The notes under the pieces: generated by a model
Seen by the model: the letters and a program-made list of their open reading frames with translations, nothing else
What the model was told of the DNA's origin: nothing
Databases searched by the model: none
Program-made: the position numbers and the translations under genes
Part shown: piece by piece, positions 12,542 through 58,900 of the stretch
Position numbering within the stretch: position 1 is the first letter of the stretch
Layout of the letters: every line of letters starts with the position of its first letter
Assembly (NCBI GenBank): GCA_003024785.1
Contig: PUQB01000137.1
Coordinates: forward strand, 98,766-162,765
Direction of reading: 5' to 3'
Length of the DNA stretch: 64,000 nucleotides
Source: Selaginella tamariscina
Lineage: Eukaryota; Streptophyta; Lycopodiopsida; Selaginellales; Selaginellaceae

Positions 12542-15510
12542 CTAACTGAAGCACAGATTGGATAGGAGTACATAAGCAGAAGATCCATGAGGACGAATAC
12601 TTGCAACTGCAGCAGCCGTTGATTTCCCAAGGTGAACATTACCATGCAGTTTACATGCCCCAAGCAAAGTCATCCATGCAACTGAACCAGGCTCCACAGG
12701 CATACTCTCGATAAGATCCCGAGACTCCTCAACTCTTCCTGTCCGTCCAAGAAGATCTACAATGCACATGAAATGTTCTAGGTTTGGAACAAAGTAGTAA
12801 TCCCCGACAAGTGAATGATAATGTTGTCTCCCAATAGCCAACAGTCCTGCATGGCTACAAGCAGACAACACGTTAACGAAAGTGATCTCATCGGGTTTCA
12901 CTCCTTGAAGATTCATTTTCCAGAGTATATCAACAGCTTCGTTGACGTGTCCATTCTGAGCATATGCAGCAGAAATGCCATTCCATGACACCAAATCCTG
13001 TTTTGCCATATGATCAAATGTTGCCTGTGCTCCCTCAAGCCATCCACATTTCCCATACAAGTTAACTATTGCATTCTGGATCATTACATCGGACCTAAAC
13101 CTGGATTCCTTGATTTCCCCATGTAATGCCCTCCCTTTTCCGAGGGCTGTCAACTTTCCATATGCTTCAAGCACGCTTAAGTACGTCACCTTGTTAGGTT
13201 CCACACCTTCAAGGTCCATGTTGTAGAAGAGGCTTATGGCTTCTAAACAATGCTCAGCTTGAACATATATACATAACATGGCATTCCATGAGACAACACC
13301 TCCTTCACCTGCAGTAACCACATTGTCGAAAACCCTCCTGGCTTCTTTCAGTTGCCCCTTCTGAGCATGTGTTGTCATCATAGCACCGCAAGTTACTCGG
13401 TCCCAAGAAGGCATTTTGCTGAACATCTCCGAGGCATCTACAGTATGCCCTTGTTGGCTATACGCTGCTGCAAGCGTGTTATAAGTCACCACGTCCCTAG
13501 AACCCATACAGTCGAAGATACATCTGGATTGTAACATATGCCCATTGTGTGCATATGATCTCAACAAGCAGTTCCATGAGATAATGCTTGGCTCTAAGAT
13601 TCTATCAAATGTAAGCTTTGCATCCTCCACATTTCCACATTTCCCATACGTGTTGACAAGAGAAGTAGCCACGGTCAAGTCGGCATCCCACCCTGCTGCG
13701 ACTGCAATAGAATGTACTCTCCTGCACTCTGAAAGGCTTTCAAAGCATGCACATCCCTCAAGAACAGACAAGAAGGTTGTTCTGTCCGGCTCGATATCCA
13801 TCTCTTTAAAGAGCTCAAGAGCTTCCTCTGCATAACCATTCTGAGCATATGCTCCAAGCATCATGTTCCAAGTGTGCACATCCCTCTCTAGCATTCTCTC
13901 AAAAAGGATTCTTGCATTCTGTACATGCCCCTTCTGAGCGTATGCAGAGAGGACCGAGTTAAAAGCTTGCACATTCTGCTCGGGAATATTTCAAGTATTA
14001 TCACCGCTTGCTCAATACGACCTTCTAAGGCATGTGTTCTAATCAGGACATTCCATGATAGCACGTCTCGCTTTGGCATGTCATCGAACAAAGACTTCGC
14101 TTCCCGTAGACACCCATTGTGAGCATACGTGGAAATCATAGCATTCCAAAGCTCATTCCTCTGCCCGGACTCGTCAAATATCAACTTCGCATCTTGCAGT
14201 GCTCCGCAGCTTCCATACATTCGCATCAATGCACTAGCCACACCAACATCAGACTCGAACCCTCTGTTCTTAACCAGAGAATGAATTCTCCTGCATTGTT
14301 CTATGTCTCCAAGCTGACCACATGCTTCCATTACAAGGAGAAAGGTGAGCCTGTCTGGTTGCATGTCCATAGCATCAAAGAGATCAAGAGCCAACTCCGA
14401 CTGCCCGTTCTGGACATACGCTGTGATCATAGCATTCCACAATGTGAGATCCCTTTCAGAGGTCTGCTCAAAAACGAGGACTGCTTTCTCAACTTCTCCC
14501 TTCAAAGAGTAACTCATAACGAGTGAAGTTTTCGACACGAGATCATGCTGTGGAGCTTTCTCATACACTTGTATCGCATCCTTGTTATATCCATTCAGGG
14601 CATATGCAGATATGAGGGCGTTCCAAGACGTGAGATCTCTCTGGGGCATCCGATCAAACATCTCTCTCGACTCAATGATACGGCTGTTGTGGGAGTATGC
14701 TGCAAAGACCGTCGTGTAAGAAACTACGTCTTGCATAGGCATTTTCTCGAATGCATCTCGGGCTTCGTCGATTCCACCTTTCTGAGCAAATGCTGCAATC
14801 ATGGCGTTCCAGGAGATTGGGTTCCTCTCAAGAATCTGATTAAACACCCAGACAGCAGTTTCGATGTCTCCGACCTTCCCATGTACACCTAAGAGTGCAG
14901 TTCCCACTGAGGTCTGAGTATGGAGTCTGAAATCGATGACATGTTCAGAGATATCTTTCACTAGGATCGGATTGACAACCATGCCTGCAAATGCATCTAA
15001 AAGGCTAACAAAACTGATGCTATCCGGCTGAATGCCCTCCATGTCCATCAAGCTGAACATCCTTACGGCTTGTGGGAATTGCCTGTTCTGAGCAAATGCT
15101 GCAACGATTGCATTCCACGACACAAGATCCTTGACAGGGATCGAGTTGAAGAGAGAATAAGCTTTCTGAATGTCCCCATATGATCCATACGCAGTGATGA
15201 GTGAATTCCAAGCAACGACGTCTGTATGAGGCATTCTGTGCAGGAGCTCACTGGCCTGCTGCAGATGCCCAGTTCGGACATATGCTCGGAGGAGTATAGT
15301 CCAAGAGTATACATTCCGGTTGTGCGTGCCGGCATGGAAAATAGACTCTGCTTCGTGAAGGCTGCCACAATTGGCATACATGTAAACCAGGAGATTTGCA
15401 AGGTACGTGTTCGTGATTAGACCTGCCGAGATTATCTGTGAGTGGAGAAACCTGGCTTCTTGTAAATCGCTACATTTCCGGAGTAGAGGAGCTAGTGCAT
15501 CGATGCGCAT
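12542..15510 (-). CDS. PLS-type pentatricopeptide repeat protein, frame broken once, E-domain cut short
   Basis: Intronless gene from ATG 15510 (MRIDALAPLLRKCSDLQEAR). PLS-class PPR proteins bind organellar RNA and usually serve C-to-U editing. About 25-30 repeats are visible, many with VSWNAMIAAFAQ- or TYNTLAAAYSQ-type starts. The first frame covers 15510 to about 13985; the repeats continue in another frame (PEQNVQAFNSVLSAYAQKG) to 12542. The switch at about 13,982-13,990 is explained by one missing T in ATTTCCC. The C-terminus runs through E-motif-like sequence (GSVAWMTLLGACKLHGNVHL) but stops at AYVLLSNLCFS, so the rest of the E motif and any DYW domain are absent. Either a recent pseudogene or an intact gene with one sequence error. 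Confidence 0.85.
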
Positions 15511-15841
15511 GAACTCGAGTTCTTACATTACATTGAGAAAGTTTCCCAAATAACCCCGAAATAACACATTTAATATTATTGAAGTTAAATTTAAAAATAT
15601 CTCAATAATTTGGGAAATTTTAATGAAAAAAAAGAATGTGATTGACTCATTTCACCAAACTCGTTTAAAATAATTTTAAAATTTTGAGATATTTTTAATT
15701 GTAAACGGCTAAACCAATCACAAATTAGCAATAGCCCAGATATATAACTCCATACTCCGCTCTGTGATGTCCGTCACACGGCCTTGTATGTTTAACAACG
15801 TATAGCATTTCAGGGTTTTAGGTTTCTTCAGTATTTCTCCA
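15511..15841. promoter_or_regulatory. divergent PPR / LPD promoter region
   Basis: 330 bp between two start codons. A TATA box (TATATAA, 15741-15747) lies 95 bp upstream of the LPD ATG. The PPR side is AT-rich without a clear TATA element. Confidence 0.55.
15741..15747 (+). promoter_or_regulatory. TATA box of LPD
   Basis: TATATAA, 95 bp before the LPD start codon, in a suitable position for a plant core promoter. Confidence 0.5.
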
Positions 15842-29567: not shown

Positions 29568-29576
29568 CTGAGATAT
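29568..29576. repeat. left 9-bp target-site duplication of the MULE
   Basis: CTGAGATAT, identical to 38341-38349. Nine bases is the standard Mutator-superfamily duplication length. Confidence 0.8.
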
Positions 29577-29765
29577 GGGGCACGGCAAAATTCGAGTGCA
29601 GGTCCACGAGCTTGACCAAGATTCATAAATATTCTTAAATATTCTGTTGTTCCGTATGATTTCTGTCTAATATTCTTGAATATTCTGTAGAAATTTTTCG
29701 TACTGCCAAGTGTACACACAATTGACCTTCCAAAATTTTCAAGAATATTCTCGTGCGGCGGCCGC
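29577..29765. repeat. left inverted terminus of the MULE
   Basis: About 190 bp, AT-rich, with repeated AATATTC units and the GC-rich inner block GTGCGGCGGCCGC. Similarity with the right end is patchy: the outer 24 bases in register and the inner 23-base block. It is therefore an old or fast-diverging terminal inverted repeat. Confidence 0.65.
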
Positions 29766-29918
29766 ATACAAAATATGGTAGTATATTTTGTTGTATTTGA
29801 AAAATATATGTTAAATTACTTAAAATATGCTAAGCATAAAATTACCATTAAAATTTATATTGAAAATTATAAGTTTGAAATACAAATATAAAACCGAAGC
29901 TTTTAAAAAACAAACACA

Positions 29919-32900
29919 CTAAATAGATGGTGGAGGATGGAGGTTCCTTGGTAGCATCAATAAAGAACTTAGTTCACGGGGTGCAAGTGTACGACGTTGC
30001 AAATGCTTGACAACTCGAGGATCAGCTCCCAGTACACGCTTGTAAACAAAATACATATGTTTGCAAGGCACCCACTGAACCATTGCAGAACTCCGAGCAT
30101 GAACAAGATGGTGCGCTGCAAATGACAACCCAAGCAGATGTATGGTCATTGTCACATACTCTGAAGCGAATGCATGTTGGAGGATCAACCACGTCAACTT
30201 CTGCGACATATGCTCCCAACGTCAAACATGCTTCAAAACTTACCTGTTGTTTCTTAGACATCCCTAAAGGTGTTCTTGTTGCACGACCACTTGCAGGAAC
30301 AGGAGGTCCACGAAATTGTGGGGGTGTTGAAAATCCAGTGACTCCAACAGGAACTGAAGGAACATGAGGTGTTGAAAAACCTGGCACTCCTGCATGAGCT
30401 GAAGGAAGCCCAGCTAGCATAAAACCTGATCTTGCCAGATCATTGATCTCCATTGCTATCAGCTTCGTGCCCACTTGAACTTTCCAAACCGAGGTAGAAG
30501 CTGGCGGAGAAACAATAGTTGGTCTTGGATGTCTGTGCAAAGCATGTTTGTTGGACAAAAATACATCATTTGTGAGCGAAAGCATTCTTCACCAGTTTCT
30601 TTGTCATTGTTTGATCCTTCCAAAAAAACAAGGAGCAGCCACTCGATTACCACTAGGACTGATCTTTTTGTCACAAGCACTCCACTGACCTCCTGAAGAG
30701 GGAAAGCCTGCCAGACATTTCACAGAACTTCTTTCACCACATCTTCTAATCGCCCATTGTCCAGGTGTAACATCTTGTTCTTCAACCAGAACATATTCTT
30801 CATGTTCTTCTGCAAGTTGAAAATCCAATCGTCGCTTCCGTCTACACTGTGTTGGAATAACCTGTTCACTATAGAAGATGTCCGGTCGGTGGGATCGTTC
30901 AGCCTCTGACCCCATATTTCTTTGCACAGTGCGATGTTCAACATTCGTGGCAGCCACAAAAGCAGTATCCTGCATGCTTGATGGAGCAACATCTTCAACT
31001 AAGTCGATGATAACCTTTGCTGTAGGTGTTGTTGAGTTAGCATTTGACATTCTTCTCTCGAACCTTGCTGAGAGCTCCTCTGAAGTCGGCCCGGAACCAC
31101 TATACCTTCCATCTCTAAAAGCCTTCACAAGAGCACATTGTCGCACTGATTCAGTCAGGTCGTGGATTGTAGCTTGGTACAATGAAATGTATTTTGAATC
31201 TCTAGCCCTCCTCCATCTTGAACAGACTCCGACTGGTTTGTCATGGGCACAACCCTTGCAGCATTCTCCGGCATGCTTTCAAGAACAACATTTGAAATAT
31301 GATTCTTCTGTCTTTCCCACCATGAAAACCACGTCTGCATAACTCCAACATCCTTCACATTTTCATTCCAAAAGCGGAAAAGATTATTTTCAATTTCTTC
31401 ACGATCAGTTGTTGATGTGGCTTGGCCATGATCTCAAAAGTTGAAGATGTTGTTGTTGATGTTCAAGAGGGACCCACTTCCTTGTCACACGTTGTATGGC
31501 TTGTTCATAGTGAAAGATACAGCTCCGTTCACGTCCAGGAATTTCTTGGCCATTAAAGAACACATTCCTAATTGCTTGCCAGATCGCTCCTGCTTCATCG
31601 GACATAAACCCAGCGAACTGCACATTGTAGATTCCCTTCTCGGAACAGACATCCAACATAGCACGAAAAAACTTCTCCACAGCTCCAGCCGTTTGTCTCT
31701 TCATGTCACCATAAGCAATGGTGGATAATCGCGCACATATAAAATAAAAAGAGTTAAGCAAACAACAAAAAGATAACATCTTACTTTGGGTCGTAAACAT
31801 GCAATGCCAGAGTGATCCACTTATCAACAACACGGTGTGTGTGATCAAGTAGAACCCAACTCTTCTGCAAAGGGCCAAGAGGAGGTTGGCACATCCTTAC
31901 ATAATCGATTCCAGAACCTGGCCCTGAAACCGTCATCTTAAAAACTAATGCCTGGTCGTCTGAACCACGGAAATTCATCCCAGGATAGTGAATCACGTGG
32001 ATGAATGGGATAGACAACCTTCGTTTCAGCTCCAATAATCCATCAATATTCTCTGGCATTTCAGCAGCAGTTCTCTTTGCGGACGCTACCCATTGACGAA
32101 CTCTGCATCAAAGGTATTATCAAAGAATGCTCAGCACAAAGTAAAACTCTAATTGTACCTTCGATTGTTTGATAATGGTTGCAAATGATCCATGAGCTTA
32201 TCCCAACTTCCAGGCTCAGAATTATCTAATAGGAAACCAAAGATAGCATCTTTACATGCTGCCATTTCGATGACTCTTGGACTAGCTCTGGGAGTTCTTT
32301 CTGTTGCATTCTGGACCGCCATATGCATTTCTTCTTTGTTCGATGCAGAAACACCATCACCCACTGGATGTGAATGTTTTCCCTGGTGGATAAACAATCT
32401 AGTCTTGGTTATGTCGTCTGGGAAAACGCAAAACGCCACAGCATGACAAACTTCAAGGCACAATGGATTTTCTTTACAGAAAAAACATGTCAATCCTTTT
32501 GCCAGTTTGTCGATTGAAGGTGGGGAAACAATACATCCTTTCCATTTAGTGCAGTTCGGAAATCCTGCCTTAGAAGCAGGGCAGTCCGGGTTGATACAGC
32601 AAAGGCTCCCAACACATTTGCTCCTGGACACCCTCGCTTGAAAATTCCAGTTGCTGGTCGTTCCTGCTGTCCAGGTATGTCCATCCTCTTTCCGATTCAT
32701 TCCTTTGTATTTGTATTCGGAAGGAGGGAGCTCAAAAATGACATCCCCATCATACGCAATAGGCAATTCATTTGTATGAATGATCGTGGAACCCTCGATA
32801 AGAATTCTTCCCTTTTTGCAGGTATTAGAAGTGAAAACTTCAACGTTGAGTATTCAGAGTCAGAAGCAACGACAAGCTTAAACAATGGTCCTTCATCCGG

Positions 32901-33134
32901 TAACAAAACATATCCTGGATTATCCTTCCCTCCAGCATCTTGGTCCTCGTTTATTTCGATCTCTAAAGCAGATTGCCCATGAAGAAGTTTAAAAAGACGA
33001 ACACTTTGCCAATCAAAAATGCCAAAGAACGTTCTAATCTGATTAGTAAGAATGATTCCAACACCATCTATCACAGGAACATCGTGATCCAAATTGCCGT
33101 AAACAATCCTGGCCATTTTGCAAGCAGTTACCAC
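29919..33134 (-). CDS. MULE transposase (zinc finger + DDE core + SWIM), frame broken in places
   Basis: Read leftwards from ATG 33134 (MVTACKMARIVYGNLDHDV). After an N-terminal region comes a Cys/His finger of WRKY-GCM1 style (CVGSLCCINPDCPASK ... CCxxC-type cysteines ... FIHQGKHSHP, 32.65-32.37 kb). A GT-AG intron follows at about 32.16-32.09 kb, then the MULE/FAR1-like RNase H core with SWVLLDHTHRVVDKW (first Asp, about 31.85 kb) and GFMSDEAGAIWQAIRNVF (second acidic block, about 31.6 kb), then RSCIFHYEQAIQR. A long basic and Pro-rich region precedes a C-terminal SWIM zinc finger, CSC ... VPCKHMYFVY (about 30.07-30.12 kb), and the stop at 29919-29921. At least three or four frame changes not explained by introns were noticed (for example about 32.82 kb and inside the SWIM finger). 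Confidence 0.78.
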
Positions 33135-33777
33135 AAACGTGACAGAAAAACAACAGCATTACTTAATCATCTTTTGGTAAATATCGGATATTACCATTTC
33201 AAAAATTCACAATCATGACTCAACGTGGGCGAATATTTAATTCAAGGAAACGTATAGATCTTAGATGCTAATATAGTATAGCACTTCACGTAGAGATAGA
33301 GCAATCTTTATTGTCTTTTAAATAAATGTGTGTCTAATCTACATTCATCTGACATTTATTTATGACTTGTTTATATTCTGTTATTTATTTATATAATTAT
33401 ATAGATTTGATCCAGTATTTTATATAATGTGTATATTGTAGACATTATAAATACATATTTTTACACGAATATTTATTTAATTATATAATAATATGTTTTT
33501 TAACATACAAATTTTTACTTAAATATGTGTTTGTATTTGTATCCTTTTATATAGTACGTTATTTATCGCAAGTATTGTATATACTGTTGTATGGTTTGAT
33601 TAAACACAGTTTTATAGTTAAGGGTCAAAGGGTTAAGTGTTAGATTTTAGGGTAAAGGTTTAGGGCCCATTCTTCTTCTCCATTCTCCATTGTTAGAGAG
33701 GGCACTTTTGTTCTTTTTGCGGCCGTTCTTGTTTCCATTTGCAACGACAAGAGGCTAGTGTAAGCATCACGGCGACA
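33135..33777. promoter_or_regulatory. central divergent region of the MULE
   Basis: About 640 bp of AT-rich sequence between the two oppositely transcribed genes. It must contain both promoters or leaders. No other gene seen. Confidence 0.45.
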
Positions 33778-33788
33778 TGGCTGCAGGT

Positions 33789-34500
33789 AAAATCTTATAG
33801 ATGTGTGTGTGCAAAAGTAGCAATTTTTGTGCATGTATGTGCAAATTAGTAGGATTTCTCTCTATTCATGAACACACACAAACACCACACACACCAACCT
33901 CTCTGGCGGAATGAATTTCCTGCCGCCTGTGGCCGCACCATCTCAACGGCAGGGAATGTGTGTGTGTGTGTGTGTGTTAGCACACACACACAAATAACAT
34001 TTTATACACACACAAGCAACATTACACAAACACACACAAGCAACATCATACACATACACACACAAGCAACATTATACACATACACACATGTACCACATTA
34101 TGGTATTATATATACAACATTAGATTGTATACATGTGTGTATGTGTGTGTGTGTGTATTATATATATATATACATACTTAAAAAGACTTTTAATATATAT
34201 ATATATATATATATATTAAATTATATGTATAAGTATATGAATTAAGACTTGTATATATGAGATGATGTTCGTCTATATATACATGTGAAGAGATATGAAT
34301 ATACCCATAATATTCTCTCACACAGACACATCACAAAACACAAACAACATTGCACACACACACACACACAACACATTACACACATACACACACAATAACA
34401 TTATATAGTGGTGTGTGTGCGTGTGTGTCTATATATTGATACATACATATAAGTAAATGTGTGTCCATAAATTAAACAACTCACACACACACTTGTTGTA
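33789..34500. repeat. microsatellite-rich block ((CA)n, (TG)n, (TA)n)
   Basis: Dense short repeats, including recurrent CACACACAAGCAACATTATACA units at about 33.99-34.09 kb. It probably forms the first intron of the methyltransferase gene: a donor (GCAG|gtaaaat) lies at about 33,788 and the acceptor TTGCAG at 34,502-34,507. Confidence 0.6.
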
Positions 34501-34504
34501 ATTG

Positions 34505-37500
34505 CAGAATGAGCAAAGGCAGAGTAAGAGACTGCGAGATAAATACAAGACTTTGACACTTAAGGAACATATCGTCCAAGAAGCTCTTGCAGATATGGCT
34601 CCAAAACCTCGTGGCAAGAAAGGAGGCCGAGGCGCCAAGCAACAACTGCAACGCAAAGAGATGATGCCGACGAACAATGAACCTGTGGATAGTTCGCAAG
34701 TCATTGATGAACATACTGTGGTGAGTGAATGGATGCCTAGAATAGGGAGATGCAGGAAGCTCTGCAGAACACGGTAATGCAGAGGAAGTAGGACATTGAT
34801 CTTGGTAGTAAAGTTCAATAAGAAGAGGAAACTGGATGCTCCTGAGGATGTTGCCGAATCATATGCAATTCCGGACGGCTGACACTTGAGGCTCCATCCA
34901 AGCTTCTTCGGGATCTTGTTATTCGGTATGACACAGATATTGACACATCGCTACAAGGACGAGACCACTACGTTCCAGTTGAGCTTGGTGAGCCTCCGCG
35001 TATCCCGGTTCACAGGTTGCTCCCACACCAACGTTTGAGGAATGTCACTAAGGACGGCGTGAAAGACCTTGTTGGATGGATTAGAGCTGAAGGATTTTAC
35101 CAGGAGACGTCAGTGTTCACCTTATCTTTCGGACCACAGCTGAGTGCAGACGAACGCCGAAGTTGGAATGAGTCAGAAGCACAGGTCGATAGAGAGTTTG
35201 AAGCGGATTTGCATAAGCCAGCATTTTCTGTGTATCGATTTCTGAAAGATGCAAAGTTTCTGGTGTGGGATGGGAATCATCGTCGGGTTGCTTTGAACAC
35301 TTGCTTGCTGAAGAGCCAGGTTTGAAATGGACTTTGCGTGTACGTGCAACACTCATAGCATCCACAGTGCAGAGGAGAAGAGACTAATCGCTGCTTGCAA
35401 TCGGTTGAATGAGTAAGTGACTTGTTTGTTTCATTATTTAAATACTAAATAAATGTTGTTTTGTTTTGCAGAGCAACTGCTCGTGTGGTTCCTACAAATC
35501 ATTCACACCTTGCAGTTCTTACGGAATTGTTGTGTGAAGTCTGCAGATCTTTCTACGATCATGTTCTTGGGATGCCGGAAGATAGAAAAGCTGTGGAAGT
35601 GTGGAGATCGAACAGAAAAGAAGACGTTTGGTACGAGTATCCAAAGACGACATTGGTGAAGATTTTTTGGGAGGTAATCTTTTCTTCTTCTTTTGACTTT
35701 TTTGATTTTCGGTTTCTTTTGCAGAATCAACTGAAGCGACAAATCGCTACAAAACTTGCGAACAGAAACCAAACCAGACAGAATCTCAGATCCTCTCCAG
35801 CGTTTACAAGACATTCACAGTTCGGATGAACAAATTCCTCACCATTGCTGATCCGGCGGTCGGTGAAGATTGGTTCAAGGCGATCACAGATATCACTATC
35901 AAACCATCGACGAAGCAAATAACTCTGGAGAAGCTTCAAATGCTCGCGAAGTCCCAGCTTCCTTCCAACGTCAAGGTTGATATCCTTGGAAGCTTGTGCA
36001 CATTCAAGAACGTGGCGTTCTTGAGAAGCTGGTGAACATGACGGAGAAAGACAAGAAGGAAGGTGTCACCGGCTGGCCTGACAAGGACTTCATCAAGTTT
36101 TTGCACATCTTTACTTACTGGTTCCAGGTAATTTATATTTATATTTTTCATTTTTATTCGTTTTATCGTGCCAGGTCGGGAGGCAGCTAAAGAGCTTTTG
36201 GTCGAGCATGTAGAGTTGAGAGTTATGGCATGGTATACAAAGATGCACAATGAAATTAAGTTGGATATGTACCAGAACATGCTCGAGAACAAGGAGTTCG
36301 GTGCGACAATTCCACCTTCTCGACTATTTGAGCTGGAAAAATCTGCAAAAAGAATGGCATTCAGGCAAGTTTTTTTTTTGTTTCTTTACAGATTTTTCTA
36401 TTTTTTTACAGGTTTTTAAATGGAAAAACGATGCACTCCCTGAAGATTTCAAAGAGTGGATGGATGTTACCAAGGATTCTAGCATGTGGAGCCGGTTGTT
36501 ACGTGATATCAGTGATTACGAAGTGGAACACTGTCCTTTCTGGCTGGATTTCCTTCCTGGTGACTGTCCCGAATGGGAGATGGCCAGCTATAAGATACAC
36601 AAGGATGATCGGCGAGAGCTATTATGGAAGAACGACAGTGCTGCAAGGAAGCTCCATGTGAAGATGGATATCAGGTATGCTAGATCGGCGAGCAAGGTCA
36701 GCAAGGGACAGCTTCTTCTTCAGCCCCATCCTTCATCTCGGCTGGATTGGAAGAAGATGATATGTTGAGGATGGTGATGCCTGAGAAGGGAAATAAGCTG
36801 GGAAATCATTCATGCAGATTCAGAGAACCTTGCAGTCCAGTACTTCAAAGCCGGAAGGCCTTTTCCGGGATTGAAGGAGCTTGAGGATTGGATCGTGAGT
36901 CACAAGTCAAGTTGGACTATTCATGTGTTTGGTGCGAAGCCTCCACCAAAATGCATCCAGGGAGCTGTTGATCTCGTTGTCATCGACCCGCCTACCGGAT
37001 GCGTTGCTGAGGCAGGCGGGATGGTGGATCAATACACGAAGTTCTCGGATGCTTTGCTGAAGAACTTGGTGAACCTTGCTTTCGGGATACTAGACAGAGC
37101 TGGCCATGTGGTGGTGTTTGTGCTACCGGATGATGTTCAGCTTTGAAGAACACTGCAGAAACTTGCAAGCTAAAGTTTCTGCAGATGAGTTATGTGCACA
37201 CGACAAGTCATGGGGATACCGTTTCTCTAGAAAGGTAATTCTTCTTTTTGAGAATGTCATTTTTTAATTTTTTTTTCAGGAAAGCATCATTGCCATGTGT
37301 ATTTTTGGTTCCCCCTACTCTAAGGTTGCCAAGAACAAGGAGATCTTGGACACTCGCTACACTCTTCTTTTGATGAGCCAGAAGATTTCCAGCTCCCATG
37401 GTATAATGTTGTTTGTTATTTCTCATTTCTAATATTGTAACTTTCAGGATTTCAATTGGCCCGAAATCTCCCAAGTTGTTTGCGATGCTAGTGGAGAAGC

Positions 37501-37898
37501 TCACAAAGCCTGGTGGAACTGTTGTGGATCTAACAGTGGGAACCGGTGCTAGTATTCTTGCAGCTTTTCACACAGGGAGACATGGTTATGGAATCGACAT
37601 CAACAAGGATCTGGTTTTAGCAGCCAGAGATGTCTTCAGGAAGGTCATTCCAAGTGTTACAGCAGCTGAAGGTGGTGGGGATGATCAAGTTTCCATGATT
37701 ACTCCTTTTGATGAGTGGAAGAGGGCCATGGAAACAGAAGCACAGGATTTGCCTTTGGCTAGCGACAACGATGGAGACCAGGATCCGCCTTCTCGAAACG
37801 ACAAGGATGTTGTTACGGAGAAGTCCGTGGAGCACAACGACGAGTCATCAGATGAGTCAGCAGAAGAGAGATCATACGAGTCATCAGATGATGAGTGA
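34505..37898 (+). CDS. ParB-like domain + beta-class N6-adenine/N4-cytosine DNA methyltransferase (MULE cargo), frame broken in places
   Basis: Protein-like exons run to TGA 37896-37898; a small 5' exon near 33,778 is possible. Order: basic Lys/Arg/Gly-rich N-terminus (KPRGKKGGRGAKQQLQ); ParB/sulfiredoxin-like domain with RIPVHRLLPHQRLRNV, GWIRAEGFY and the signature FLVWDGNHRRVAL (WDGNHRR at 35,266-35,286); a long helical middle; methyltransferase motif IV as VDLVVIDPPTG (DPP at 36,985-36,993); then AdoMet motif I as GGTVVDLTVGTGASILAAF (about 37,517-37,573) with HGYGIDINKD; acidic Ser/Glu/Asp tail. Motif IV before motif I is the permuted beta order. GT-AG introns are seen near 35.42-35.47, 35.68-35.73 and 36.37-36.41 kb. 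Several frame changes remain. Bacterial and phage ParB-methylase fusions are known; occurrence in a plant transposon is the surprise. Confidence 0.78.
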
Positions 37899-38220
37899 GA
37901 TTTGTTTTATCATTTCTTTGGTTTTAAACTTTAATATGTTTTCAGTATGTTCTCAGACTACGCTAATCAGATGGCAAGAGAAAATGGTTGAAGAGTTCGA
38001 AGTTTACACAGACAGATTTTGGAAGAAACGTTCACGACACCGTAACAATGCATTCATTAACGACGAGGCACTCTGGTGGAAACGAGTCTTCATGATTGAG
38101 TTATGTTTAAAATTTAGTTTGATGCGGTAATATAAAAATAATATATAAATATAAATATAAAAATAAACATAAATATAATATAAAAATATAAATATATATG
38201 TCAATTAACTGCCCAAATTT

Positions 38221-38340
38221 GCCGGCCGCCGCACCAGAATATTCTTTATATAAAAACGAATATTCTATACAAAATGGAATATTCCGATACTACCGAAATC
38301 CGTACTCTCGGCAAACTGCGCTCGAGTGAATGTCGGATCC
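38221..38340. repeat. right inverted terminus of the MULE
   Basis: About 120 bp starting inside with GCCGGCCGCCGCACC and holding three perfect GAATATTC units. It ends at GGATCC next to the target duplication. Confidence 0.65.
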
Positions 38341-38349
38341 CTGAGATAT
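38341..38349. repeat. right 9-bp target-site duplication of the MULE
   Basis: CTGAGATAT, identical to 29568-29576. It lies 122 bp upstream of the next gene's ATG. Confidence 0.8.
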
Positions 38350-44696: not shown

Positions 44697-46800
44697 TTAT
44701 GTGTAACATGTTGCAGTGCCTTGGAGAATTTCATTGATGGGCCTAGTGCAAATATCTTCATCCCCTTCTATTTGTTGTAAGCAGCAGCAAAAGATTTTAG
44801 GGCCATCAGACTGACTTTTTCTGTTGGCCGCTTTATCAAACACGCACCCAAATATTTCAAGATGTTTATACCAATTGCTTGACCTTCTCCTCCCAATCTT
44901 CTGACAACTGGAAATGAACACATAAGCTAGCATCAAAGTTATCAAGATAATCTATGGAGTACCTTATACTTAGGATCAATATCCACGTCATCTTCATCTT
45001 GTTGTTGAGAAGGCTCTGGCATTTCAACTCGTTGCACCTGACCAACATCAACTGGTGCATCTACAACCTTCATACCTTCCTGCACATCCAAGATAGAAGC
45101 ATTTCCACTATTGGTTTTGTGTTCAAAACCCCTAGCTCTGACACCATCAAAGTACTCCAGCTCTGTTTCAGAGTTGAAATCTTCAGGATCCCTAGGTTTC
45201 TACAATTCCTAAGATTAATAACATGTACATGTTAAACAGAAAATAAAAGTTACCTTTTGTGAGTTTTGAATAGCTTTCATTGATTCTGGAGTGCTGCTAA
45301 CCTTCTGTTTGATGTTGTTGTTGTTGCTTCTAGCAGCTTCGTCATGTTCAACATTATCCTTGTTGCATTCATTTTCCAATTCCTTGATAGTGTTCGAAAT
45401 GAACACATAAGCTAGCATCAAAGTTATCAAGACAATCTATGGAGTACCTTATATTTAGGATTAGTATCCATGTCATCTTCATCTTGTTGTTGAGAAGGCT
45501 CTGGCATTTCAACTCGTTGCACTTGACCAACATCAACTGGTGCATCTACAACCTTCATACCTTCCTACACATCCAAGACAAAAGCATTTCTACTATTGGT
45601 TTTGTGTCCAAAACCTCCACCTCTGACACCGTCACAGTCCTCCAGCTCTGTTTCAGAGTCAGAATTTTCAGATCCCTAGGTTTCTACAGTTCCTAACATT
45701 AATAATATGTATATGTTGAATAGAAAATAAAAGTTACCTTTTGCGAATTCGGAATAGCTTTAATTGATTTTGGAGTGCTGCTAACCTTCTGTTTGATATT
45801 GTTGTTGTTGCTTCCAGTAGCTTCATCATGTTCAACATTATCATCAACATCCAAGAAGACTAACTTGTGTCAATGTTTAGAAAGGAAAAGAATGAATACT
45901 TAAACAAACAACTCACAACTCCACTGCATGAGGCACTCTTCAATCGTTTGGCAGGTTGACGTCTCACATTGGTGTGTTCAGAGCTATCACTCTCATCTTC
46001 TGAGCTATGCACAAACTCAGGTTCATCATGGATGCTTGTGCAGCACTCAGGCCAGAAAACCAAATCCTGTTCATGAGTTAGCGTTAGCTATGAAATGAAA
46101 ACAAAAGAAACCAAGAATCTTACCTCAATATCTAGCTGGGAAACCCGGTGAGGATGAGATTCCTCAAATAGCGGCAAACCGGCTTGGAATGGTATGCAGA
46201 GGTCTTTCTCTAAGTCTTCCATGGTAACAATTTTAACTCGTAGAATAACATACTTGTGCTCTTCCTTCTTCTCAAGCCACTCCATCACCAAAGCAGTTCC
46301 AACTTGCTAATGACAAAGTAAATGGCAGATCGTAAATAAAAAATAGAATACTTGCTTTTGTTTCCTTGAATTGATGCGGCTTGACCATCCTTGCCAAATG
46401 CAAATTCTTGAAGAATCCATATCTCCCTTACCAAGCTTCATGCCATATGCTAGCAAATTGACCTTAATGTGTCCCCACTTGTACAATCTCCCCAACAAAC
46501 CTTCCGCCTTCAAAGCCTCCTTCCTTCTTGTTATCACTTTGCGCAAACTCGTGAGCTTCACGCAGATCTCTCTCTCAGCTGCATACGTGTCTCTAAGGAG
46601 CAATTGGCACCATACAACTGATTCACTATCTGTGTCCTACGAGGAAGATACTTCTCGGCATCTGGCCCTTGAATTTTGCAATCCAATAATTTGGAAAAAC
46701 TACCTTCAGCTCCTTACAGATCTCTTTGGCTGTGATCATTTTGGAGCGCTTTGCATCCTCATCGGTGGAGGCAGAACCAAAGATGTTGCTTACCTCCAAA
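44697..46800 (-). CDS. unrecognised multi-exon gene with internal tandem duplication
   Basis: Protein-like minus-strand exons: KMITAKEICKELKVVFPNYW and LPRRTQIVNQLYGANCSL (46.8-46.6 kb), REICVKLTSLRKVITRRKEA with WGHIKVNLLAYGMKLGKG (46.6-46.4 kb), VMEWLEKKEEHKYVILRVKI (about 46.29-46.12 kb, good donor), an acidic/basic exon with SSEDESDSSEHTNV and QPAKRLKSAS (46.07-45.91 kb), then repeated exons from the 486-bp duplication. Composition (acidic Ser-rich block, NLS-like KRLK) suggests a nuclear protein. I do not recognise a family. It lies beside a Tnp2-like transposase locus and could be a second gene of that transposon. Some frame changes are present. Confidence 0.4.
44911..45846. repeat. 486-bp tandem duplication
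   Basis: Copy 1 44911-45396 and copy 2 45397 to about 45846, both starting GAAATGAACACATAAGCTAG and sharing landmarks at a 484-486-base offset (for example CTTCTGTTTGAT at about 45,302 and 45,786). It duplicates at least one intron-exon block of the unrecognised gene. The copies differ by scattered substitutions. Confidence 0.9.
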
Positions 46801-47658: not shown

Positions 47659-48241
47659 TGTCAAGCCACGATCCAGGAAACAGGAAGAGAGCAGGATTCC
47701 AAGGACAGGAAGGCTTGACTCAGGAACAGGACCGAGAGCAGGACAGGAACCAGGAATAGGAACAGGACGGATCTAGGAGCAAGACAGGATCAGGATAGGA
47801 TCCGGGAGCAAGACAGGAAAGCACAGGATAGGATCCGGAGCAAAACAGAACAGGACAGGATCCCGGAGCAGGACAGGATCCAGGAACAGGACAGGAAATA
47901 AGACAAGAACAAGACAAGACAAGATTGATCGTAGTAAGACTGGTGTTGATAGTAACTGATTGTACAACAATTAGGTCGGAGCTTTTATGCTCACAACTCC
48001 AAGAGCTAATCTAGGCATGCATGCAAAAGTGGTTGCATGCATGCAAAAGTGTTGCATGCATGCAGAGGCTAAGATGAGTCCACATGTCCCTTATCCTCTA
48101 GGCATATCCTGTGGCATATCCTGTAGGAATATCCTGTAGGAAATATCCTGCAACCGATATCCTGTATCCGGAATCCTGTAGGAAAGTCCTGCAACCCATG
48201 TCCTGTATCCGGAATCCTGTATTCTGTATCGGGTCGTGACA
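47659..48241 (-). repeat. chromovirus copy 1, 3' LTR
   Basis: 583 bp, TGTCAAGCC...GTCGTGACA on the plus strand. Contains CATGCATG (RY-type) motifs and long runs of CCTGT-rich short repeats. Confidence 0.93.
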
Positions 48242-51200
48242 GCACCTCCTCCCTAAAGACGAGTTCCACGAGTCTTGGGACCTGGTTTAGCAGGATAATG
48301 CCGATGGAAGGCAGCAACCTTGGAAGAAGCATGGAGTAAGTTGGATGCAGGTTCCCAAGTGCGATCAGTAGGCAGGTACCCTTTCCAATCCACCAAGTAT
48401 TGGAGTTGGTGACGATGAAGACGAGAGTCAAGGATGGCTGCGACTTCGTACTCAGGTTCCGTGTCAATGACCACAGGAGGGGGAGGAGAAGAAACACGAC
48501 CAGGAAGAGAAGAAGGATGATACGGCTCCAACAAAGAGGTGTGAAACACAGGATGAAGTTTCACCGTGGATGGTAACTCGAGTCGGAAAGCTACAGGATT
48601 TACCTCCGCCACGATCCTATAAGGGCCCAATCGTTGAAAATCCAACTTAGAAGAAGGCCTGTTGGTGCGAATGTGTCGACGAAGAAGCCACACGAGATCA
48701 CCAATCTTGTATGCAGGTGCCGGCTGTCGGTGAGCATCAGCATGATGCTTGTATCGTTCCTGTGCCTGTTGAAGATGAACCTGGAGATCATCCTGTACCT
48801 GCCGAAGATGCTGAAGACGATCCTGTACTGCAGGAGCGGAAGAAGGAGAAGCGGTAGGAGCAAAGTCAAAACGTGGATGGTGGCCTGTAAGAGCAAAGAA
48901 AGGTGTCTGTCCTGTAGATGCGTGGATGGAGTTGTTGTAGGCAAACTCTGCCATTGGAAGGAGGTCCAACCAGTTGTCCTGCTGGTAACTGATGAAGCAA
49001 CGAAGATACTGTTCTAAGGTCTGAATTGTGCGTTCGGACTGCCCATCGGTTTGTGGGTGATATCCTGAAGAAAGATCCGCTTTGACCTGTAGACTCCGAA
49101 GAAGCTCTCGCCAAAACTTGGACATGAATTGTGGACCTCGATCGGAAACAATGCTCTCAGGAAGACCATGATGTCGGAACACCTCGCGGATCACCAACTC
49201 GGCAGTTGTCTGACCTGTAGCTGTCTTGTTGCAGGGTAGGAAATGAGCCTGCTTGGTGAAACGGTCAACACCACAAGAACTGCATCAAATCCACGGAAGG
49301 AGGAAGATCTGTGAGGAAATCCATAGAAATGGATCTCCAAGGAGCAGACGGAACAGGAAGAGGACGAAGAAGACCAGAGGGTGCATGATGAGGCATCTTC
49401 GACCTGCTACAAGTGTCACAACTCCGTACAAACCTCTCCACAAAACCTCGCAACCCAGGCCACCAATAGTTGCGAGTCACCAATTCCACTGTCTTGGCCA
49501 CACCAAAATGTCCTGTAGCCGGGGTATCATGACAATCCTGTACCACACGAGTCCTAGAAATACCAACAGGAACGTACAGGAGACCTTCCCGGTACAGGAG
49601 TCCATCCTGTATGGTGAATAGGTTGTAGTCTGGACGGGAACTGGAGGAAGAGGAACTTGCAACGTCAGGATGAATGTGTGAGAACACATTCTTTCCCAAG
49701 TCGTCTGTAGGCAACTGCGAACGAACGTCCTGTAGGAGTGTTGAATTTGCTGGAGCCTGATGAACCTGCAGTGCCGCAAGCCGGAAACGATCAGGACCCA
49801 ACAACACTTGCCTTTGACCGTCAAATGCAGGATCGCCCGGGCTTGGTGCAAGGTAAGAGCGCCTAGACAATGCGTCCGCCTTGCCATTCCGAAAGCCGGG
49901 CCTGTAGACGATGACGAAGTCAAAACGTGATAGGAACTCTGCCCACCTAGCCTGTCGCCGACTGAGGACCCGAGCCGTTTGAAAGTACTCCAGGTTCTTG
50001 TGATCCGTAAGAACTTGTACAGGATGTGCAGCACCTTCCAGGAAATGCCGCCATTCCTCAAACGAATCCACAATGGCCTTGAGTTCCTTGTCATGAATCT
50101 CGTAGTTGATCTCCGCCGACAGGAACTTACGAGAGTGAAAGGCTACAGGATGAAGCAACTTGTCCTCTCCAACTTGCGATAGGACGGATCCTACTGCAAA
50201 ATCCGAGGCATCTGCTTCAATGAAGAAAGGATGAGAAGGGTCAGGATGTGCTAAAATCGGAGCTGTCGTGAAAACGTCCTTGAGTGTTGTGAACGCGTGT
50301 TCCGCCTTGTCGGACCAAGAGAAAAGTCCTGTGCGCTTGGTGAGTTCTGTGAGTGGAAGTACACGCTTGGAGAAGTCCTGTATGAACCGCCTGTAGAAGT
50401 TTGCAAAGCCAAGGAAACATTGTACATCTCGTACCGACTTGGGCCTCTCCCACTCCACGATGGTCTTCACCTTGTGCATGTCCATGGAAACGCCAGCAGG
50501 AGAGACGATGTAGCCCAAGAACTCCACCGAATCCCTATCGAAAAAACACTTCTCCAACTTCGCGTACAGGCCATGCTCGCGAAGCCGCTCTAAAACTAGT
50601 CGTACATGCTTGTCATGTGCCGCCTGGTCCTTGGAGAAAATCAAGATGTCGTCGAGGTAGATCACCACAAACTGGTCCAAGAAGTCACGGAAAATGTCGT
50701 TCACCATGTGTTGGAATACAGCTGGGGCATTGGTAAGGCCGAAAGGCATTACCGTGTACTCAAAATGTCCATACCTTGTACGAAAGGCAGTCTTCCACTC
50801 ATCGCCGGGACGAATCCGTACAAGGTTGTAGGCTCCTCGTAAGTCGATCTTCGTGAACACCTTTGCCCCTCGCAGCCGATCGAGAAGTTCCGGGATCAAT
50901 GGCAACGGATACCGATTCCGAATGGTGACTTGATTCAAACCCCTGTAGTCCACCACCAAACGTAAACTCCCATCCTTCTTCTTGACAAAGAAGATAGGAG
51001 CTCCTGCAGGGGACTTTGAGTGACGAATGAAGCCGGATCCTAAGTTGTCCTCGATGTATTGACGAAGAACCTCCAACTCTGTGGGTGACAATGCATAGAT
51101 CGGTCCGAATGGTGGAGTCTTTCCTTCCGCAAGATCAATAGGACAGTCGTAGGACCTGTGAACAGGAAGAACTGCAGCCTTGTGCTTGTCAAAAACGTCC

Positions 51201-53351
51201 TTAAAGTCGTGGTACTTGGATGGTAGGGAAGAAGGAGGAGAAGGAGAAGGAGAAGGAGAAAAAACAGGGGAGTCGGATACAGGAAAGGTAGGAGAGGACG
51301 TAGGAGTTACTTGAAAAGCAAAAAGGTGGAAGGGGGCAGGATCAGTGGCGAGTTCATGCATGGTAGTGGTAAGAACTCGGAGAGGAGAAGGAGGGAGCTG
51401 TGACTGAAAAAGAGGAAGGATCTTGGGGGATGGAACAGAGGCAGGGTAACAGAAAGAAGCAGGATTGGAAAAAACCTGTGTGGTTGTTGATGAGTGTACA
51501 GGATTGGAAGAATCCTGTACAGGACACCGTGAGTGTACAGGATTGGAAGAATCCTGTACAGGAGTCCGTGGTTGCGCAAGAGTGGAAGAAGCCTGCGAAT
51601 GTGCTGACGAATCAACAGGAGGTGGATCCTGTTGAGGAGGAACCTTCGACACTGATACAGGATTGGAAGAACCCTGTACAGGACACCGCAAACTTACAGG
51701 AATGGGGAGAGCCTGCGGATGTGCTGAGGAACTGCCATGAGGTGAATCCTGTCGAGGAGGAGTCTTCAACACTGGTACAGGAACAGGTACGGTCAATCCT
51801 GTAGCTTGTACTGCCTCAGATACTAAGGATGTATCCTGCACGCAGGAAGGTATTGATCCTAGAAGTTGGAGAGGAAAACGTGAGTGTCCTAGACCTCCAG
51901 TCGATCTGCGGATTTGCAACAACGAACCATGGCATGCCCAAAATGATGGGAGTCGACCGAGTCTTGATCAAGTTGAAGGAAATTGAACAGTTGAATGTGC
52001 CATACCTGCAGGAGAGAGGTTCGGTAGCATGGGTAACTGCACCGGAAGCAATTAGACGCCCATCGGCCACCTCTACAGGAACTGCACGCTTCAACTTCAC
52101 CACCGAAATGCCATGTTGAGTTGCAAACGTGTCATCCATGAAGCATGCATTTGCACCAGTGTCTAACAAGGCAAACTCCATGAGCTCTCGATTATTAAGA
52201 TGAATGTGTACAGGAAACTTAAGTGACGGGATGGTATGAGCAGCACCAATGGAGCCTGCACCTACGTCCAACTTCGCGGCTCCTAGACGAAGTGGACATT
52301 GGAGTTTTCCGACTGAACTTCGGCTTCGACTTCACGCGTCTTGAAGTTCCTGGCTTTAATAGGACAATCTGCCACCTTGTGTCCTGCTCCACCACAATAC
52401 AAGCACAGGTTCTCACTGCGACGACGTTGCTTCTCGGCAGCGGAAAGAGAGCCACGCTTGGATTTCTCAACCTCCATAGGAACTACTCCAGAAGGTGGTG
52501 CAGGAACATGTACCACAGCTGTAGGATTGGTTTGCAGGAACTGTTGACGGGATCTTTCCTGACGACGCTCGAACAAACGGTTGTCGCAACGAACAGCTTG
52601 TTGCATGATCTCCGCTAATGTTTGGGCATCCGGTAACGTAAGGAGAAGGTCCTTCACGTCGTCCCTCAACCCAAAACGGAAGTGTTCGATCAATGCAGTC
52701 TCGTCCCATGGAATGTTCGTGCAAAGTTGCTGAAATTCGGATGCATAGACGGAAGCTGGTCGGGATCCTTGAGTGAGCTTCCGTAACTTCGTGCATGCAG
52801 AACGGTACTTATCAGGATCTCCAAAACAGGCTTCAAAGGCAGCCACGAAACCTTCAAAGTCTTCCATCAGTGGATCGTCACGCTCCAGCAAGGGGGCAAC
52901 CCAAGCCCGTGGAGATCCACTTAGTAAGGATGCCAAAAGACCCACCTTTTGAGCATCAGTCGAGTAGCGCCGTGGTTGCATACGGATCAAGAGTCGGATC
53001 TGATTCAGGAAACCTTGGAAATCGGCACGATTACCACTGAACTTCTCTGGCATGCTAACCTTCGGCTCCGAAGAAAAGTTTGATGAAGAGGAAACCACCG
53101 ATGCCTGGGAGAGAGCCTGCGCAGCAGCCTTGGAGGATGCATCAGCAGCTGCATGTGCCGCAGTGGTGGAACCTTGCAGGTCGGTGACCACTTGGCGCAA
53201 AGTGGCCAGCTCATGAAGTAGCATTTGGTGCTCGTGTTGAAAACTCAAAATCAGCCATGATCTAGGAAAGAAAAAAGGAGGAAAATGAAGGAAAGGAATC
53301 AAGAAAAAGGTAGCTGGAAAACGGAGAACTATGAAGCAGTTACTATCAAAC

Positions 53352-53914
53352 TGTCAAGCCACGATCCAGGAAACAGGAAGAGAGCAGGATTCCAAGGACA
53401 TGAAGGCTTGACTCAGGAACAGGACCGAGAGCAGGACAGGAACCAGGAATAGGAACAGGACGGATCTAGGAGAAGGACAGGATAGGATCCGGGAGCAAGA
53501 CAGGAAAGCACAGGATAGGATCCGGGAGCAAAACAGGAACAGGACAGGATCCCGGAGCAGGACAGGATCCAGGAACAGGACAGGAAATAAGACAAAGACA
53601 AGACAAGACAAGATTGATCGTAGTAAGACTGGTGTTGATAGTAACTGATTGTACAACAATTAGGTCGGAGCTTTTATGCTCACAACTCCAAGAGCTAATC
53701 TAGGCATGCATGCAAAAGTGGTTGCATGCATGCATGCAGAGGCTAAGATGAGTCCACATGTCCCTTATCCTCTAGGCATATCCTGTGGCATATCCTGTAG
53801 GAATATCCTGTAGGAATATCCTGCAACCGATATCCTGTATCCGGAATCCTGTAGGAAAGTCCTGCAACCCATGTCCTATATCCGGAATCATGTATTCTGT
53901 ATCGGGTCGTGACA
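53352..53914 (-). repeat. chromovirus copy 1, 5' LTR
   Basis: 563 bp, near-identical partner of 47659-48241. Confidence 0.93.
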
Positions 53915-55371: not shown

Positions 55372-55950
55372 TGTCACGATCCGATACATGATACAGGATT
55401 CCGGATACAGAATATTCCTACAAGATATTCCTACTACAGGATACGGTCGCAGGATATTCCTACAGGATATGCCATAGGATATGCCTAGAGGATAAGGGAC
55501 ATGTGGACTCATCTTAGCCTCTGCATGCATGCAGCACTTTCATGCATGCAACCACTTTTAGCACTCATGCCTAGATTAGCTCTTGGAGTTGTGAGCATAA
55601 AAGCTCCGACCTAATTGTTGTACAATCAGTTACTATCAACACCAGTCTTACTACGATCAATCTCGTCTTGTCTTGTTCTTGTCTTGTTTCCTTGTTCTCT
55701 CCTTGTCTCCTCCTGTCCTGTCCTGCTCCTGTCTTGTTCCGGATCCTGTCTGTTCCTGTCTTGTTCCTGGATCCTGTCCTGCGCCTTCCTGTCTTGCTCC
55801 CGGATCCTATCCTATCCTGTCTTGCTCCTGGATCCTGTCCTGCTGTCCTTGCTCTGAGTTCCTAGTTCCTGTCTGCTCTCTCCTTCCTGAGTCAAGCCTT
55901 CTGTTCTTGGAATCCTGCTCTCTTCCTGGTTCCTGGATCGTGGCTTGACA
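55372..55950 (+). repeat. chromovirus copy 2, 5' LTR
   Basis: 579 bp, ends ...GTGGCTTGACA before the internal region; RY-type CATGCATGCA motifs and a TATA-like GCATAAAAGCTCC are visible. Confidence 0.9.
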
Positions 55951-58900
55951 GTTTGATAGTAACTCTTTCATAGCTCTCCGTTTTCCAGCTACTTTTTTTC
56001 TTGATTCTTTTCCTTCGTTTTCCTCCTTTTTCTTTCATAGATCATGGCTGATTTTGAGCACTTTCAACGCGAGCACCAAATGTTGCTTCATGAGCTGGCC
56101 ACTTTGCGCCAAGTGGTCACCGATCTGCAAGGTTCCACCAATGCGGCACATGCAGCTGCTGATGCATCCTCCAAGGCTGCTGCGCAGGCTCTCTCTCAGG
56201 CATCGGTGGTTCCCTCTTCATCGAACTTTTCTTCGGAGCCGAAGATTAGCATGCCAGAAAGTTCAGTGGCAATCGTGCCGATTTCCAAGGTTTCCTGAAT
56301 CAGATCCGGCTCTTGATCCGCATGCAACCACGCGCTACTCGACTGATGCACAAAAGGTGGGTCTTTTGGCATCCTTACTAAGTGGATCTCCACGGGCTTG
56401 GGTTGCCCCCTTGCTGGAGCGTGACGACCCATTGATGGAAGACTTTGAAGGTTTCGTGGCTGCCTTTGAAGCCTGTTTGGAGATCCTGATAAGTACCGTT
56501 CCGCATGCACGAAGTTACGGAAGCTCACTCAAGGATCCCGACCAGCTTCCGTCTATGCATCCGAATTTCAGCAACTTTGCACGAACATTCCATGGGACGA
56601 GACTGCATTGATCGAACACTTCCGTTTTGGGTTGAGGGATGACGTGAAGGACCTTCTCCTTACGTTACCGGATGCCCAAACATTAGCGGAGATCATGCAA
56701 CAAGCTGTTCGTTGCGACAACCGTTTGTTCGAGCGTCGTCAGGAAAGATCCCGTCAGCAGTTCCTGCAAACCAATCCTGCAGCTGTGGTACATGTTCCTG
56801 CACCACCTTCTGGAGTAGTTCCTATGGAGGTTGAGAAATCCAAGCGTGGCTCTCTTTCCGCTGCTGAGAAGCAACGTCGTCGCAGTGAGAACCTGTGCTT
56901 GTATTGTGGTGGAGCAGGACACAAGGTGGCAGATTGTCCTATTAAAGCCAGGAACTTCAAGACGCGTGAAGTTGAAGCTGAAGTTCAGTCGGAAAACTCC
57001 AATGTCCACTTCGTCTAGGAGCCGCGAAGTTGGACGTAGGTGCAGGCTCCATTGGTGCTGCTCATACCATTCCATCACTCAAGTTTCCTGTACACATTCA
57101 TTTAATAATCGAGAGCTCAAGGAGTTTGCCTGTTAGACACTGGTGCAAATGCATGCTTCATGGATGACACTTTTGCAACTCAACATGGCATTTCGGTGGT
57201 GAAGTTGAAGCGTGCAGTTCCTGTAGAGGTGGCCGATGGGCGTCTGATTGCTTCTGGCAGTTACCCATGCTACCGAACCTCTCTCTGCAGTCATGGCACA
57301 TTCAACTGTTCAATTTCCTTCAACTTGATCAAGACTCGGTCGACTCCCATCATTTTGGGCATGCCATGGTTCGTTGTTGCAAATCCGCAGATCGGAGGTC
57401 TAGGACGCTCACGTTTTCCTCTCCGACAGCTAGGATCAATCCTGTACCTTCCTGTGTGCATACATCCTTAGTATCTGAGGCAGTACAAGCTACAGGATTG
57501 ACCGTGCCTGTTCCTGTACCAGTGTTGAAGACTCCTCCTCGACAGGATTCACCTCATGTCAGTTCCTCAGCACATCCGCAGGCTCTCTCCTCCTGTAAGT
57601 TTGCGTTTCCTGTACAGGGTTCTTCCAATCCTGTATCAGTGTCGAAGGTTCCTCCTCAACAGGATCCACCTCCTGTTGATTCGTCAGCACATTCGCAGGC
57701 TTTCCCACTCCTGCGCAACCACGGACTCCTGTACAGGATTCTTCCAATCCTGTACACTCGTCAACATCCACACAGGTTTTTCCAATCCTGCCTCTTTCTG
57801 TTACTGCTTCTGTTCCACCCCCAAGATCCTTCCTCTTTTTCAGTCACAGCTCCCTCCTTCTCCTCTCCGAGTTCTTACCACTACCATGCATGAACTCGCC
57901 ACTGATCCTGCTCCTTTCCACCTTTTTGCCTTTCAAGTAACTCCTACGTCCTCTTCTACCTTTCCTGTATCCGACTCTCCTGTTTTTCAATCTCCTTCTC
58001 CTACTCCTTCTCCTTCTCCTCCTTCTTCCTACCATCCAAGTATCACGACTTTAAGGACGTTTTTGACAAGCACAAGGCTGCAGTTCTTCCTGTTCACAGG
58101 TCCTACGACTGTCCTATTGATCTTGCGGAAGGAAAGACTCCACCATTCGGACCGATTTATGCATTGTCACCCACAGAGTTGGAGGTTCTTCGTCAGTACA
58201 TCGAGGACAACTTGGCATCCGGCTTCATTCGTCACTCAAAGTCCCCTGCAGGAGCGCCTATCTTCTTTGTCAAGAAGAAGGATGGGAGTTTACGTTTGGT
58301 TGTGGACTACAGGGGTTTGAATCAAGTCACCATTCGGAATCGGTACCCGTTGCCATTGATCCCGGAACTTCTCGATCGGCTGCGAGGAGCAAAGGTGTTC
58401 ACGAAGATCGACTTACGAGGGGCCTACAACCTTGTACGGATTCGTCCAGGCGATGAGTGGAAGACTGCCTTTCGTACAAGGTATGGACACTTCGAGTACA
58501 CGGTGATGCCTTTCGGCCTTACCAATGCCCCAGCCGTGTTCCAACACATGGTGAACGACATCTTTCGTGACTTCTTGGACCAGTTTGTGGTGATCTACCT
58601 CGACGACATTTTGATTTTCTCCAAGGACCAGGCGGCACATGACAAGCATGTACGATTAGTTCTACAGCGGCTTCGCGAGCATGGCCTGTACGAAGTTGGA
58701 GAAGTGTTTTTTCGATAGGGATTCTGTGGAGTTCTTGGGCTACATCGTCTCTCCTGCTGGCGTTTCCATGGACATGCACAAGGTGAAGACCATCGTGGAG
58801 TGGGAGGCCCAAGTCTGTACGAGATGTACAATGTTTCCTTGGCTTTGCAAACTTCTACAGGCGGTTCATACAGGACTTCTCCAAGCGTGTACTTCCACTC

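Follow-up and report, generated by a model that had tools for sequence, protein, structure and literature searches.

A two-gene, MULE-like DNA transposon family of Selaginella tamariscina with a methyltransferase-like gene as its standing second gene

The stretch analysed here (the window, i.e. 64,000 nucleotides of Selaginella tamariscina contig PUQB01000137.1, assembly GCA_003024785.1, forward-strand positions 98,766 to 162,765) contains one copy of a large transposon family in which a gene for a methyltransferase-like protein (the methylase) is a standing second gene, integral to the element and co-mobilised with it. As to anatomy, this is very probably a two-gene DNA transposon family of a lycophyte, combining a transposase resembling those of Mutator-like elements (MULEs) with a divergently oriented methylase. 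The two-gene unit has spread recently, and its young copies hold an intact methylase gene of the S-adenosylmethionine (AdoMet) type. As the best overall explanation we favour, as probable rather than established, a co-mobilised methylase that marks the transposon ends.

The 9-bp duplicated element proposed by the first-pass annotation was confirmed: it occupies exactly 29577-38340 of the window, set by identical 9-bp direct repeats on each side. The two genes are arranged head-to-head, with the transposase on the minus strand and the methylase on the plus strand, and the region between them probably holds the promoters of both. The features of the window copy are as follows:

29568-29576, target-site duplication, left (CTGAGATAT, 9 bp)
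29577-38340, transposon of 8,764 bp, a diverged copy with ~2 % substitutions (family length roughly 8.9-9.0 kb)
29577-29764, plus strand, left terminal region, with perfect GAATATTC at about 29678 and 29743 (five in the sister copies L048 and L049)
29741-29764, plus strand, left arm of the subterminal inverted repeat
29919-33116, minus strand, transposase gene of three exons (about 33116-32159, 32102-31785 and 31737-29919), placed by eye against sister copies
33117-34508, no strand, intergenic region between the divergent genes, with a CA/GT microsatellite and a length that varies among copies
34509-37898, plus strand, methylase gene with seven coding exons (34509-35412, 35472-35673, 35725-36127, 36175-36364, 36412-37234, 37280-37400 and 37448-37898), its frame broken in the window copy
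34965-35390, plus strand, ParB/DndB-like region containing FLVWDGNHRRVAL at 35257 (limits approximate)
36970-37002, plus strand, methyltransferase motif IV, DLVVIDPPTGC
37521-37559, plus strand, AdoMet-binding motif I, VVDLTVGTGASIL, then GIDINKD
38223-38246, minus strand, right arm of the subterminal inverted repeat
38230-38340, minus strand, right terminal region, with three GAATATTC at about 38237, 38258 and 38277
38341-38349, target-site duplication, right (CTGAGATAT, 9 bp)

The two arms of the subterminal inverted repeat measure 24 nt and are 96 % complementary. The outermost ends of the sister copies are degenerate terminal repeats, loosely alike and sharing mainly TCGAGCGCAG when compared by eye. 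Past the methylase stop, a short plus-strand stretch at 37956-38095 looks protein-like by eye in sister copies, and might encode either the final exon of an alternative splice form or a small product of its own.

The evidence for a family comes from a scan of the plant's own genome (300,702,823 bases in 1391 contigs), in which a methylase motif-IV probe, with up to 3 mismatches allowed, matched 115 places, a transposase probe 110, a right-end probe 93 and a subterminal-motif probe 71 (including the window right arm), while the reversed control of each probe matched 0. Since 100 of the 115 methylase places and 100 of the 110 transposase places were listed, all pair counts are lower bounds. The motif-IV probe was exact in 93 of the 100 listed places; at least 77 of them had a head-to-head transposase within 20 kb, mostly 5.3-5.75 kb off, and for 23 no such transposase was listed within that distance. 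Both genes lay by at least 55 of the 71 subterminal motifs. Among the 93 right ends, at least 70 had the methylase probe inside, within 3 kb, and at least 44 had left motif, transposase and methylase all in order; 23 lacked a listed methylase probe within 3 kb, eight of these being near a transposase or left motif. Whether the termini of other copies enclose the methylase had been set beforehand as the refutation test, and they do so in at least 46 of the 51 places where a left motif has a right end 3-25 kb downstream, the remaining five showing full-length spacing (7.8-8.8 kb). A single capture, or one-off cargo, is thus rejected, as both ends enclose the methylase across many copies, and a fixed host locus is rejected by the copy structure, the different flanks and the 9-bp duplications. 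From the earlier idea of a captured prokaryote-type enzyme, the gene type and its carriage by a DNA transposon therefore survive, whereas the single capture gives way to a standing family gene.

Reading of both joints was attempted for 22 sister copies and succeeded for 16, of which 11 have 8 bp or more in common (e.g. GAACTATAT and TCACTTATA), the other five having no 8-bp match there; a further copy outside the 16 script-readable ones (C975) carries CACAAGTCT on both sides by eye. Five sister copies fetched whole and trimmed to the element differ pairwise by 0.08-0.28 %, indicating that the family is young and recently active; the window copy stands about 2 % apart from these five. Among 30 fetched loci, 13 (L015-L027) have identical methylase genes across 3,009 bp, and these may have been partly homogenised by assembly.

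The methylase gene has six short introns, five of them GT-AG and one GC-AG, and encodes a 1,042-residue protein without a stop in four of the five whole sister copies (L047, L048, L049 and L050), the gene of L051 being one base short and hence not open. The protein consists of a basic N-terminus, a ParB/DndB-like region, a long middle, a permuted N6/N4-type methyltransferase and an acidic tail. As read in the first pass, the plus strand gives FLVWDGNHRRVAL, DLVVIDPPTGC and VVDLTVGTGASIL in that order, so that motif IV (residue 764) precedes AdoMet motif I (residue 917); motifs I and II are intact. The suggested check against the Pfam profile N6_N4_Mtase (PF01555; cut-off 26.7 bits) was positive for the spliced protein of an intact sister copy (34.2 bits, E 3.3e-8) and also for the open frame 37407-37898 of the window (27.3 bits), bearing out a permuted, beta-type N6/N4 methyltransferase-like domain. 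The spliced protein further matched phrog_67, 'DNA methyltransferase' (E 2e-10, residues 638-966), and PADLOC mad2 (E 1.8e-8).

No relative at a usable E-value emerged. Against the protein collection, 8000 candidates were scored with none at E up to 0.01 (a repeat scan scored 7997, none at E≤10); phage records gave matches only at E 0.04 and 7, the former on a 225-residue methyltransferase without ParB annotation, and plasmid records gave no close relative at E≤1, the search not extending to other plants or to contigs of viruses and bacterial genomes. Given the six introns and the lack of a close relative in the protein collection, phage and plasmid records, a recent prokaryotic pick-up is unlikely.

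The MULE assignment of the transposase by the first-pass annotation holds for the 9-bp duplications and the architecture, and fails for the profile: Pfam MULE (PF10551) was unmatched in the intact transposase at E up to 10, while the same profile matches 77 other places in the genome, none of them in the contig of the window. Of 5431 candidates in the protein collection, none matched at E up to 0.1, and a SWIM profile, whose cut-off is 19.6 bits, scored 12.1 bits against part of the window copy and was unlisted for the intact protein. By eye, the protein shows a CSC...CKH end, GKHSHP and SDEAGA...CIFH, which may correspond to a SWIM finger, an H-x-H finger and a D...D-C-x2-H catalytic pattern, respectively. 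Together with the 9-bp duplications, these motifs point to a deep MULE-like branch, and we use the label MULE-like only, because the architecture supports it and no profile match does. A separate, ordinary MULE family exists in the same genome, with 16 PF10551 matches of identical top score (e.g. C102:183580-183867). One ordinary MULE match (C1004:211841-212128) falls inside a copy of the present family, in the interval from methylase probe to transposase probe, which is widened to 7.8 kb, as if the ordinary MULE were nested in it.

In the window copy, inspection by eye shows about ten frame breaks in the methylase and about five in the transposase. Compared with the methylase of L048, there are 24 substitutions (20 exonic, 4 intronic) and 22 indels of 1-2 bp, all of them deletions, 10 being in homopolymers of three or more. 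According to the accessible part of PMC8558194, the S. tamariscina genome (300.73 Mb) was sequenced with PacBio and assembled with Falcon. Considering this assembly and a deletion-only indel ratio unlike that of ordinary decay, consensus deletions are plausible; natural decay of the window copy is not accepted as shown, and the copy is perhaps broken partly through assembly errors. Elsewhere in the window, a long frame of pentatricopeptide repeat (PPR) type (by eye; 12542-15522, minus strand) reads as two frames that overlap, as a single short indel would produce, which fits consensus errors in this assembly. The window also contains two Gypsy-type long terminal repeat retrotransposon copies (47709-53914 and 55372-61517; type named by eye from the frames), inverted to each other and 91.6 % identical, the second broken into more frames than the first, as well as a tandem duplication of 448 bp (44911-45358 and 45396-45842, 91.5 % identical).

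The ends of the element carry arrays of the palindrome GAATATTC. L049 has eight of them within its terminal 190 and 105 bp and none in the interior, and its 500 terminal bp hold 16 AATATTC/GAATATT, against a mean of 0.31 and a maximum of 3 in 500 shuffles. Ten left ends have 2-5 GAATATTC each, one of these ends being cut by a contig start; of 28 right-end matches in fetched loci, several of which represent the same copy, 25 have three, one has two, one has four and one (L003) has none. The 55,236 bp of the window outside the element contain two. Candidate binding partners of the arrays are the transposase and the methylase, singly or together.

According to the explanation that we favour, the methylase would act in the nucleus (with KKRK at residue 107 as a possible nuclear signal), bind the transposon ends via the GAATATTC arrays and methylate amino groups of adenine or cytosine there, working in trans across the copies of the family. 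Ends marked in this way would escape host silencing and/or become licensed for the transposase. The nearest way of working is that of the VANDAL elements of Arabidopsis, except that the additional protein of the present family would be the writer of a mark; their extra protein, VANC, is to our knowledge not a methyltransferase. The methylase is on balance expected to be enzymatically active on DNA. That it acts on its own termini is more tentative, and the most specific version, in which a ParB-guided methylase would lay N6-methyladenine (6mA) or N4-methylcytosine (4mC) at the GAATATTC arrays and thus oppose silencing by 5-methylcytosine (5mC) or license transposition, is doubtful in its full form.

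Several observations weigh against this explanation. The catalytic (D/N/S)PP(Y/F/W) is absent: motif IV reads DPPT in the window, in L047-L049 and in ten further loci, and DLPT in one listed motif-IV place (C599). In known N6A/N4C enzymes, the aromatic residue of this motif stacks on the flipped base. A motif IV without it is the reason why we call the protein methyltransferase-like only, its target base and activity being predicted at most. Pfam ParBc (PF02195), the other profile suggested for the methylase region, was unmatched at E up to 10 in the whole protein and in three pieces, noting, here as for Pfam MULE, that the HMMER filters discard most matches with E above about 0.1. What stands of the ParB claim is the short DGNHRR motif and matches to DndB, described in the accessible part of its source as a ParB-superfamily protein (PMC10853773). 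These matches (E 1.4e-4 for a piece of 90 residues, 0.0056 for the full-length protein, and 0.0078 with the PADLOC DndB profile) are under the curated cut-offs, so that the region is best termed ParB-like, and the older copy L011 carries four non-synonymous changes within the DGNHRR motif. It is equally conceivable that the terminal arrays are bound by the transposase, and the transposase is open (1,037 aa) in one of the five whole sister copies, L049, the one copy in which both genes are open. Finally, the pooled changes of 11 variant copies show no clear excess of synonymous ones (51 of 147 against 46.7 expected, P 0.24). When each copy is considered singly and gap-adjacent changes are excluded, the window copy (9 of 18 against 5.2 expected, P 0.046) and L012 (6 of 9 against 2.9, P 0.03) lean towards synonymous changes, a lean not shared by the older copies L011 (P 0.34) and L013 (P 0.26); among changes common to at least two copies, an unfiltered set, 13 of 25 are synonymous against 8.2 expected (P 0.037). 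With several tests made, this is only a hint of purifying selection on the methylase.

The aromatic residue missing from every DPPT copy listed above, together with the DLPT of C599, speaks for a catalytically dead or repurposed methyltransferase fold, i.e. a DNA-binding transposition or anti-silencing factor that would be a reader or clamp and not a writer. As described in the accessible text of PMC12704722, the ParB fold can be a CTP-switched DNA clamp, which would suit such a role. We regard it as rather unlikely, as neither of the AdoMet motifs I and II is damaged and motifs IV and I are unaltered in all 11 variant copies compared, an observation of little weight in so young a family. Less likely still, the methylase would time transposase cutting, as a replication-coupled control, instead of countering silencing. 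Dam provides such control for Tn10/IS10, and a methylase-type domain coincides here with palindromic terminal arrays where the transposase must act; from plant MULE-like elements, however, no mark of this kind is known to us. That the methylase is passive, hitch-hiking cargo without a role for the element would agree with the lack of clear purifying selection overall and with the 23 right ends without a listed methylase probe nearby, but is improbable considering the two-ended places, nearly all of which hold the probe and the rest of which have full-length spacing, the open gene in four of five full copies and the synonymous lean of the shared changes. A host gene lying by chance between unrelated repeats, as an assembly or annotation artefact, had nothing in its favour and is refuted by dozens of separate places that keep one order of parts while their flanks differ, most of the readable ones also showing 9-bp duplications.

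The favoured reading, a co-mobilised methylase that marks the transposon ends, has partial parallels elsewhere. Fungal KDZ transposons are associated with TET/JBP genes and likewise join a DNA transposon to a DNA-modification gene, although these genes encode oxygenases acting on 5mC and the transposase is of another class. In line with the first-pass annotation, which was aware of no described plant transposon with such cargo, no plant DNA transposon with a methyltransferase gene was found in the open-access literature, subscription papers being mostly outside that search. Retrotransposons with methyltransferases are described in the accessible part of PMC5890265, i.e. C5 DNA methyltransferases (DNMTs) in dinoflagellates and charophytes (Symbiodinium and Klebsormidium) and adenine methyltransferases in DIRS elements. 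Like the present family, these elements encode their own DNA methyltransferase in many copies; the DNMT retrotransposons, however, use host-derived C5 enzymes (PMC5890265), whereas the present element is a DNA transposon whose separate, intron-containing gene encodes a ParB-like region joined to an enzyme of the permuted N6/N4 type. VANDAL elements, as far as the accessible text describes them, resemble the family as MULE-type elements with degenerate terminal repeats, an extra gene and short-motif arrays in non-coding regions, but their trans-acting anti-silencing VANC proteins cause loss of DNA methylation (PMC10398659); the comparison is one of working only and claims no homology. Fusions of a ParB-CTPase fold with an N6_N4 methyltransferase are described, in the accessible part of the source, for phages and prophages (PMC12704722), and thus share with the methylase the union of both domains within one protein; they are prokaryotic, and the protein studied here adds the long middle, introns and charged tails. 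The bdelloid N4CMT, which has a chromodomain and SPPY as its catalytic motif, and the 4mC methyltransferase of Marchantia are, as here, bacterial-type amino-methyltransferases in eukaryotes, but are described as host enzymes, the accessible part of that report describing no carriage of N4CMT by a transposon (PMC8885841).

The means by which transposons counter silencing are still to be settled, and 6mA in eukaryotic DNA has been controversial, according to the accessible part of PMC12695648. The family makes both directly testable, since it is young, numbers dozens of copies and includes at least one copy in which neither gene is interrupted. If the favoured reading is true, transposon-borne methyltransferases, so far described for retrotransposons, would also occur in a DNA transposon and in vascular plants, and a vascular plant would carry a sequence-specific amino-methylation mark made by a parasite of its genome.

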